Source of the DNA: Rhodoferax sp.
GTDB taxonomy: Bacteria > Pseudomonadota > Gammaproteobacteria > Burkholderiales > Burkholderiaceae_C
Assembly (NCBI GenBank): GCA_026224975.1
Contig: JAMFRW010000031.1
Coordinates: 1-37,607 of the forward strand
Length of the DNA: 37,607 nt
Direction: 5' to 3'
The stretch's first letter is position 1. Every line of letters begins with the position of its first letter. The position numbers and the translations under genes were made by a program. The notes beneath the pieces are model-generated. The model searched no databases. It saw only the letters and a list, made by a program, of their open reading frames with translations, and was not told where the DNA came from. This document shows, in pieces, positions 5,430 through 8,578 of this stretch.

Positions 5430-6724
5430 GCGCGACCGCCTCGCATCATTTGCCGATTCTCGATATCAATGCGTAGAACGATCGCCAACGCAATCATGTT
5501 CATCACGATCGCCGAGCCGCCGTAACTCATCAGCGGCAGTGTTAGCCCCTTGGTCGGCAGCACGCCGAGGTTCACGCCCATGTTGATGAAGGCCTGGCCG
5601 CCCATCCAGATGCCGATGCCTTGCGCATACAGGCCGGCGAACACACGGTCGAGCGCGATGGCCTGGCGGCCGATGTGGAAGAGGCGGCGCGAGAGCCAGA
5701 AGAACGCGAGGATCACGCAGGCCACGCCGACGAAGCCGAGTTCTTCGCCGATCACCGCGAGCAGAAAGTCGGTGTGTGCCTCGGGCAGGTAATGCAGCTT
5801 TTCCACGCTCGACCCCAATCCTTGTCCGAAGATTTCGCCGCGGCCGAAGGCGATCAGCGAGTGCGTCAACTGATAGGCCTTGCCGAGCGCGTATTCCGGG
5901 TCCCATGGCCGCAGGTAGGCAAAGATGCGCTCTCGCTTTTCAGGGCTGGAGGCGATCACCAGGCAGAAGGTGCCCACCAGCACCGCGCCGCTCAGCAGGA
6001 ACATGCGGCCGTTGACGCCACCCAGGAAGAGAACGCCCATCGAGATGAGCGCAACCACCATGAAGGCGCCCATGTCGGGCTCGCGCAGCAGCAGCGCGCC
6101 GGTGATGCCGAGCGCCACCGCCATGGGCCACACGGCCTGCACGAAGTTCTCTTTCACGTCCATCTTGCGCGTCATGTAGCTCGCGGCATACATGGCCATC
6201 GCGACCTTGGCCAGCTCGCTCGGCTGGAAGTTCATGACGCCCAGCGGAATCCACCGGCGCGACTTGTTGACGACCTTGCCGATGCCCGGCACCAGCACCA
6301 GCACCAGCAGCACGAGCGCGATGACGAAGATCCACGGCGCCGCCTTCTCCCAGGTGCTCACCGGGATCTGCACGGCCACGAAAGCCGCGATGCAGGCCAG
6401 GCTCACCTGCAGGATGTGGCGGGTGAGGAAATGGGTGGAGGTGTAGAGCGCGAACTTGGGGCTGTCGGGCAGTGCCACCGAGGCGCTGTAGACCATCACC
6501 ATGCCGAGCGCCAGCAAGGCGACGATGACCCAGACCAGCGCCTGGTCGAAGCCCAGCAAGCGCGTGGGCTGGCCACTGCCGACGTTGATCCAGTCGCGCA
6601 CCGGCACCGATTCGCGCAGGTCGTCGGCCTTGGCGCCGCGCGAGGTGAGCGATGCGAAGGCGGCGCGAATCCCGTCGAGGCCGAAGCGGCTCGGTGGGGC
6701 TGCGTTGTTGGATGCGGTATTCAT
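5426..6724 (-). CDS. ftsW: Septal SEDS glycosyltransferase FtsW
   Basis: Polytopic SEDS protein, [34 protein letters not shown]. Confidence 0.95.
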
Positions 6725-8502
6725 GCAGCCACCTCCCCCAGATCAGAAGCCAGCGCGTGCACTTCGGCCACGAAAACCTGCGCGCGATGGCCGTAGTTGC
6801 GGAACATGTCGAGGCTGGCGCAGGCCGGGCTCAGCAGCACGGCATCGCCCGCTTGCGCCTGTTCGAAGCACCAGCGTGCGGCGGCTTCCAGCGTGGCGTG
6901 GCGCTGCATCGGCACGCCGGTGCCGGCCAGCGCCTCTTCGATGCGATTGGCATCACGGCCGATCAGCGCCACGGCGCGCGCATGGCGGCGCACCGGCTCT
7001 TTGAGCGGCGAGAAGTCCTGCCCCTTGCCATCGCCACCCAGGATCACGACGAGCTGGCCCGGCGCCTTGTCGGCACCGAGGCCGAAGAGCGCTGCGACCG
7101 TCGCGCCGACGTTCGTGCCCTTGCTGTCGTCGAAGGCATCGATGCGGTTGACAGTCGCGATGAACTGCACGCGATGCGGCTCGCCAGCGTATTCACGCAG
7201 GCCGTGCAGCATGGGCGCGAGCGGGCAGCCGACGGCCGTCGCGAGCGCCAGTGCGGCCAGCGCGTTGGCGGCGTTGTGGCGGCCGCGCACGCGCAGCGCA
7301 TCGGCCGGCATCAGGCGCTGGATGACCAGCTCTTCGGGCTCGGCGATGCTGCCGCGCTTGGGGCGTTTGATGATGGTCTCGTCGCTTTCGAGCGCGCGCA
7401 CCAGCCAGGCCATGCCGTTCTCGTCGAGCAAGCCGAAGTCACCGGGATGGCGCGGCGCGTCGAGGCCGAAGCGCACCACCTGACGATGCACCGTGCGCGA
7501 TGGCCGGCCCTTGCCACCCTTGACGATGAGCGACTCGGGGATCAGCTTCTCGACCTGCGCATCGTCACGGTTGATCACCATCACCGCCGTCTTGCCGAAG
7601 ATGCGCGCCTTGGCCGCGATGTAGGCCGCCATGTCGCCATGCCAGTCGAGGTGATCCTGCGTGATGTTGAGCACCGTCGCCGCGCTCGGCTCGAAGCCCT
7701 TGACTTCGTCGAGTTGGAAGCTGGAGAGTTCCAGCACCCAGACTTCCGGGAGGTGTTCGAAGATGGGCAGCGGCGGGGGTGGATCGGGGAGGATGGGGGT
7801 GGGTTCTTCCTCGCTGCTCTGGAGCGCTTCGTCGCCCTCACCCTCGGTCCCTCTCCCAGGGGGAGAGGGAAGGTCGGCTTCGGCCAAGGTGTCTGGTGAC
7901 TCGTGGTCTTCTGCGGCGACATCCTCTTGAATTGGCCCCTCTCCCTCCGGTAGAGGGCTGGGGTGAGGGCCAGCGGCATCACCAGCCGGCTCCACATCCA
8001 ACGCATCCGCCAGCGTCTGCAACATCGTCGGCCCGATGTTCCCGGCCATCGCCACCCGCTTGCCAGCCCGCTCGATCAACATCGCCGCCATCGCGGTGGT
8101 GGTGGTCTTGCCGTTCGTGCCGGTGATCGCAATCACCTTCGGCGCATACCCGCGCACAGCCTTCAGATCGGCCAGCGCCCGCGCAAACAAGTCCAGCTCG
8201 CCCTGCACCGGCACACCCGCATCCATGCAACGCGAAAGCGGCCCGGCGATGCGCTCATCGAGCATCGACAACCCCGGGCTCTTGAGCACCAGCTTCACGC
8301 CCGCAAACGCCTCATCCGTCAACGACCCATTCAGCACCGTTGCAGATGGAACATGCTCGGCCAAAGCACCGGCATTCGGCGCCACATTCCGAGAATCCCA
8401 AACCCGCACGACCGCACCGAAGCGCGCCACCCAGCGCGCCATCGCCAGGCCCGATTCGCCGAGGCCCAGCACCAGAACAGTGGCGTCCTTGAGGTAAGTC
8501 AT
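6721..8502 (-). CDS. murD: UDP-N-acetylmuramoylalanine--D-glutamate ligase with a roughly 80-aa internal repeat-derived insertion
   Basis: [43 protein letters not shown]; likely start MTYLKDA at 8502. Extra segment [14 protein letters not shown]...[16 protein letters not shown] lies between the ATP-binding motif and ELSSFQL. Confidence 0.94.
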
Positions 8503-8516
8503 GACAGCCCCCACGG

Positions 8517-8576
8517 CGCTGCGCGCCGGCCCCCCGAGGGGGTGTCGACTGCTTTGAGGCGGCTCGGCAGCAGTCG
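8517..8576. repeat. REP-like palindromic repeat (CCCCCCGAGGGGG type) between murD and mraY
   Basis: ggccccccgagggggtgtcgactgctttgaggcggctcggcag resembles the element inside murE (11606-11690). Confidence 0.55.
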
Positions 8577-8578
8577 CA

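Follow-up and report, generated by a model that had tools for sequence, protein, structure and literature searches.

A murD gene in the 37,607-nt window, which is the whole stretch of DNA analysed here, carries two inverted copies of a palindromic repeat, and according to the original prediction these copies built an insertion of about 80 residues in the protein. This raises the questions of which kind of repeat is involved, whether it gave rise to the inserted segment, and how an element of a normally intergenic type can come to be read as coding sequence of an essential Mur ligase.

The murD gene and its repeat pair

The ORF at 6721–8514 on the minus strand, with an alternative ATG start at 8502, constitutes murD and encodes a UDP-N-acetylmuramoyl-L-alanine--D-glutamate ligase of 597 aa. 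The product matches TIGR01087 with E=7.7e-101, which exceeds the curated cut-off, and contains the Pfam domains MurD-like_N, Mur_ligase_M and Mur_ligase_C; its best PDB matches are MurD crystal structures, both by sequence and by fold, and the MurD peptide quoted earlier agrees with the translation. The assembly of the window genome (G000) is fragmented, with 615 contigs and 87% completeness, and holds only one full-length copy of murD.

The open frame runs through both repeat copies, as predicted for a normally intergenic type of palindromic repeat lying in frame in an essential ligase, and both are presumably translated and tolerated in the cell. The first copy in the coding direction, at 7936–7969 (minus strand), consists of the third strand CCCTCACCCC followed by the palindrome CCCTCTACCGGAGGGAGAGGG and encodes an 11-letter peptide at about residues 182–193. 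The second copy, at 7835–7870 (minus strand), has the palindrome CCCTCTCCCCCTGGGAGAGGG, a 5-nt second loop, ACCGA, and then GGGTGAGGG, and encodes a 13-letter peptide at about residues 215–227. Compared with the pattern CCCTCTCCC-N3-GGGAGAGGG, the palindrome CCCTCTCCCAGGGGGAGAGGG at 7849–7869 has no mismatches and CCCTCTCCCTCCGGTAGAGGG at 7937–7957 has one. The chance expectation for the window is 0.06 matches, and two were not reached in any of 100 shuffles. The palindromes form an inverted pair separated by 67 nt, with arms that are 86% complementary, and a third segment is found on the outer side of each, with GGGTGAGGG lying past 7957 and the complementary sequence ahead of 7849. With these third-strand segments included, the extents and opposite orientation originally given for the two repeats are confirmed.

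Identity and distribution of the repeat

The murD repeat is a G/C-rich intrastrand triplex motif (TM, called BoxC in E. coli), in which a palindrome is combined with a third, G-rich strand. Both murD copies show the defining order of a palindrome CCCTCTCCC/GGGAGAGGG followed by the third strand GGGTGAGGG. The motif is known from E. coli, for example as CCCTCTCCCTGTGGGAGAGGGCCGGGGTGAGGG (Holder et al. 2015, PMC4666352, Table 1), and was related by the same authors to BoxC, which is also treated in PMC2267715. In E. coli K-12 all 23 of 23 TM copies were reported to be intergenic, with five inverted pairs (PMC4666352). Intergenic location is a trait of the E. coli TMs outside the sequence definition, and it is not shared by the murD copies, which lie inside a conserved gene.

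Pattern searches, on which all genome-wide repeat counts are based, gave 21 palindrome sites for the window genome, spread over 19 loci and mostly outside genes, and the expectation that the repeat should be found elsewhere in the genome is thereby borne out. The exact full TM motif is present in 27 of 121 genomes sampled from the family, with zero control matches. Around the sites that were read from five congeneric genomes there are 26 close TM pairs, of which 25 are inverted, and the murD pair, with the orientation and spacing seen for TM pairs genome-wide, therefore has the usual layout of the element.

Two other repeats were seen in or next to murD. One consists of a 22-bp palindrome, GTCCTGGCTTGCAAGCCAGGAC, that is flanked by about 70 conserved nt; it is located directly upstream of a TM in murD of genomes G005 (L216:1700-1840) and G008 (L217:1750-1895), and is also scattered over other loci of G005, G009 and G000 (also L261–L266). 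Together with the TM it looks like a composite element. The spacer between murD and mraY (window 8500–8578) resembles five further sites of the genome, with 80–86% identity, and contains the palindrome ggccccccgaggggg; it is another dispersed repeat.

The hypervariable MurD loop

The repeat pair is located in a hypervariable loop, residues 174–256, encoded by 7747–7995 (minus strand) and delimited by linker comparison, composition and AlphaFold2. The loop is found in the central domain, where it connects the helix that follows GNIGPTM to the next conserved strand, and is acidic and Pro-rich, with 21 D+E and one K+R. The AlphaFold2 model (34 aligned sequences) has a mean pLDDT of 83, mostly above 90 in the core, and leaves the stretch from the end of a helix at 174 to the strand at 258 free of secondary structure; the pLDDT is below 50 for residues 186–233, in keeping with the predicted placement in the central domain, probably in a surface loop. 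The model thus suggests a disordered, repeat-bearing loop on a confident MurD core. The sequence alignment to 8dp2 connects query residues 173 and 257 directly, indicating that the long loop stands in place of a short connection in solved MurDs.

In relatives the linkers range from 51 to 265 aa, counted from GTNGKTTT to a conserved 11-residue strand motif, and they are mostly acidic, Pro/Ala-rich and devoid of any TM. Since relatives without the repeat have loops that are equally long or longer, the loop should be older than the repeat and independent of it, with the TM pair as a later guest. The proposed origin of the insert from the repeat is accordingly not supported, and of the predicted insertion of about 80 residues made from two repeat copies there remains a loop of about 83 residues with two copies in it, where only about 25 residues are derived from the TM pair. 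The original prediction had also named presence of the insert in distant MurD homologues as an argument against a mobile repeat; such presence was found for the loop and not for the repeat.

The longest linker, in L090, has up to 265 aa between the motifs. In L064, L097, L102 and L114 the loop has apparently been enlarged by tandem duplication (e.g. DRTVPMALEDRTVPMGLE, EPGESTEPGESAGPGES and AEAEAEAEAEAGAGAEAG), and in the Rhizobacter-like L051 the linker has only 87 aa between the motifs, nearly all of the loop being a TM pair with GCAAGCG loops. A literature search on MurD, disordered linkers and Burkholderiales returned nothing relevant.

Gains and losses of the repeat in MurD

TM-type repeats are present in the murD loop of the window genome, G005, G008, G009, L051 (a Rhizobacter-like MAG, sister to the genus) and L061 (Methylibium rhizosphaerae, an isolate), and absent from four of the eight congeneric MurDs compared. 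In a quick gene tree built from the core sequence with the loop left out, all TM-positive MurDs fall within one 13-row clade, where they interleave with TM-negative ones, and the best tree has five changes of TM state, at least three of which are forced by well-supported branches. There may have been one TM origin, a single ancient insertion, with many erosions or losses.

Reading frame and second-loop length

The second loop is 3 nt long in 80 of 93 TMs, while the downstream murD copy has a 5-nt loop in G000 and G008 (ACCGA and ATTGA). Among ten congeneric genomes the 5-nt form GGGAGAGGGNNNGAGGGTGAGGG, with up to one mismatch, occurs in murD of these two only, which points to a common descent of their murD repeats. 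A canonical copy with a 3-nt loop, read in the frame used by the downstream copy of G000 and G008, would run into the repeat's own TGA, and it is the length of 5 nt rather than 3 that brings this TGA out of frame. The downstream murD copy of G005 has a canonical loop and uses a different open frame (LPLPLREGWGEG). The upstream copy is open in 3/3 frames and the downstream copy in 2/3, and the pair is readable in 5/6.

At three other loci (L167, L193 and L233) ORFs stop exactly at the TGA of a TM. The TMs near these 3' ends appear to provide the stop via the TGA of GGGTGAGGG, appending a PSPxGRGLG tail.

In-frame copies in other genes

In the sister genome G005 in-frame TMs are found in seven genes, namely mfd and a dipeptide-type ABC ATPase gene, both with an inverted pair, putA, hrpA, murD, ior (indolepyruvate ferredoxin oxidoreductase) and the gene of a CusA/CzcA-type pump. 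Empty sites exist for two of them: in an alignment with congeners the 40 aa of the mfd TM pair are absent from six relatives, and the repeat segment of ior is absent from the aligned relatives G002, G004 and G008. No target-site duplication, a mark of MITEs, is evident at the filled and empty sites of mfd and ior, where the flanks have diverged.

Gene-internal loci, called by cumulative flank scores and checked by NCBIfam, amount to 7 of about 38 in G005 and 0 of 18 in G002, and of the 19 loci of G000 murD alone is secure. Scoring the codon usage of short flanks was dropped as it failed on the known murD case, because of the low complexity of the loop, and the weakly scored internal candidate L173 had no NCBIfam family match and was not counted. 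Bacterial genomes are mostly coding, so that these few copies mean that genic TMs are strongly under-represented, as expected if selection removes most such insertions. A limited open-access literature search found no report of TM/BoxC repeats inside proteins.

Origin of the in-frame pair

We consider it highly probable that an old disordered loop was later colonised by a readable inverted TM/BoxC pair of a dispersed, mostly non-coding family, and that the pair is unlikely to have a catalytic role. The MurD of this Burkholderiales clade would already have had the old, length-variable and disordered loop after the GNIGPTM helix when an inverted pair of the family dispersed in these genomes inserted into it, a route that we infer. 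The insertion would have persisted since additional residues are tolerated at the landing site and the pair is readable; where the frame of the downstream copy would hit its own TGA, in the window genome and G008, the 5-nt second loop shifts this stop out of frame. The resulting peptide is rich in Pro, Gly and Glu, resembles the surrounding loop and would be a flexible tether, the TM-encoded segment most likely has no catalytic role, and we infer that the insertion in MurD is neutral. We know of no mobilising enzyme for TM repeats. A wider and clearly more tentative proposal, which we regard as possible and somewhat doubtful, is that TM/BoxC repeats remodel proteins of Burkholderiales by in-frame insertion, now or until recently, and that they have landed repeatedly in the murD loop, where the repeat was kept readable by a change of loop length that takes the built-in stop out of frame.

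Alternatively, the loop could owe its existence to the repeat: an early TM insertion in what was then a short loop of MurD would have been its starting point, and the linkers that lack a repeat in relatives would be what erosion has left of it. The L051 linker, almost entirely a TM pair, and the confinement of TM-positive MurDs to the 13-row clade would fit such a history, but long repeat-free linkers, in which no trace of a TM was seen, also occur in a 43-row Roseateles/Pelomonas group and in deeper rows (L064, L070 and L095), and we hold this origin to be unlikely. Still less probable is that the repeats are kept for a function in DNA or RNA, as a triplex or hairpin acting in replication, transcription or translation of the dcw operon, with the peptide as a by-product. 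Both murD palindromes are nearly intact and TMs fold as triplexes in vitro (PMC4666352), but Holder et al. saw nothing to suggest that TMs have a general role in regulation (PMC4666352), and the absence of the TM from half of the eight congeneric MurDs indicates that it is dispensable. The predicted fold of the mRNA region is only modestly more stable than that of shuffled sequences (z=-1.57), which leaves long-range mRNA structure unsupported as a selected feature.

Repeats are breakpoints in short-read assemblies, and a repeat-mediated chimera in this fragmented assembly, or a binning error, might have put intergenic repeats into murD. Such an artefact is strongly disfavoured, since the two halves are parts of a single MurD with one reading frame and the conserved motifs of the core. 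In-frame repeats of a similar kind are also present in murD of G005, G008, G009 and an isolate, and two independent genomes have the rare 5-nt loop in common. Under the preferred reading, a later colonisation of an existing loop, two easily confused processes are told apart, the growth of a disordered loop and its subsequent occupation by a repeat, and the filled and empty pairs of mfd, ior and murD make tolerance and neutrality directly testable.

Comparison with known in-frame palindromic elements

By its sequence the murD repeat belongs to the TM/BoxC kind, sharing with the E. coli repeats the plan CCCTCTCCC-N-GGGAGAGGG-NNN-GGGTGAGGG, the two-loop layout and the frequent inverted pairs. It differs in that the murD pair is coding whereas the E. 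coli K-12 copies are reported as intergenic, and in the 5-nt second loop of one murD copy.

Its working mode is like that of the Rickettsia palindromic elements (RPE) and of the intragenic GTAG/CGTC REPs. The latter (PMC3733652) are likewise extragenic-type palindromes inside conserved genes, including repair genes, and often inverted dimers, but the murD unit has neither a GTAG nor a CGTC tag, and the core of that unit is not printed in PMC3733652. A reading of the murD repeat as a REP/REPIN driven by a RAYT was rejected because the RAYT transposase (Y1_Tnp, PF01797) is absent from the 87% complete G000, the same search being positive in five control genomes.

Reports of RPEs cover 19 reading frames (Ogata et al., reviewed in PMC2229807), and gmk is one RPE-bearing frame shown to be translated and active (PMC2229807). 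Both families are short palindromic repeats found in frame in many unrelated conserved genes and apparently tolerated, and the seven genes of G005 with their empty sites show this trait for one repeat family. The analogy to RPEs drawn in the original prediction is therefore apt in how the insertion works, with the same in-frame tolerance in a different repeat family. An RPE is one unit of 105–146 bp (PMC2229807) in Rickettsia, and the murD repeat conforms to it neither in sequence, size nor host, the TMs being units of 33–36 bp in inverted pairs in Burkholderiales; the murD landing site, moreover, is a loop that was already hypervariable. In-frame palindromic insertion is best known from Rickettsia; the present cases extend it to repeats whose E. 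coli copies were described as strictly intergenic, and to Burkholderiales that are free-living, in whose core genes filled as well as empty sites occur.
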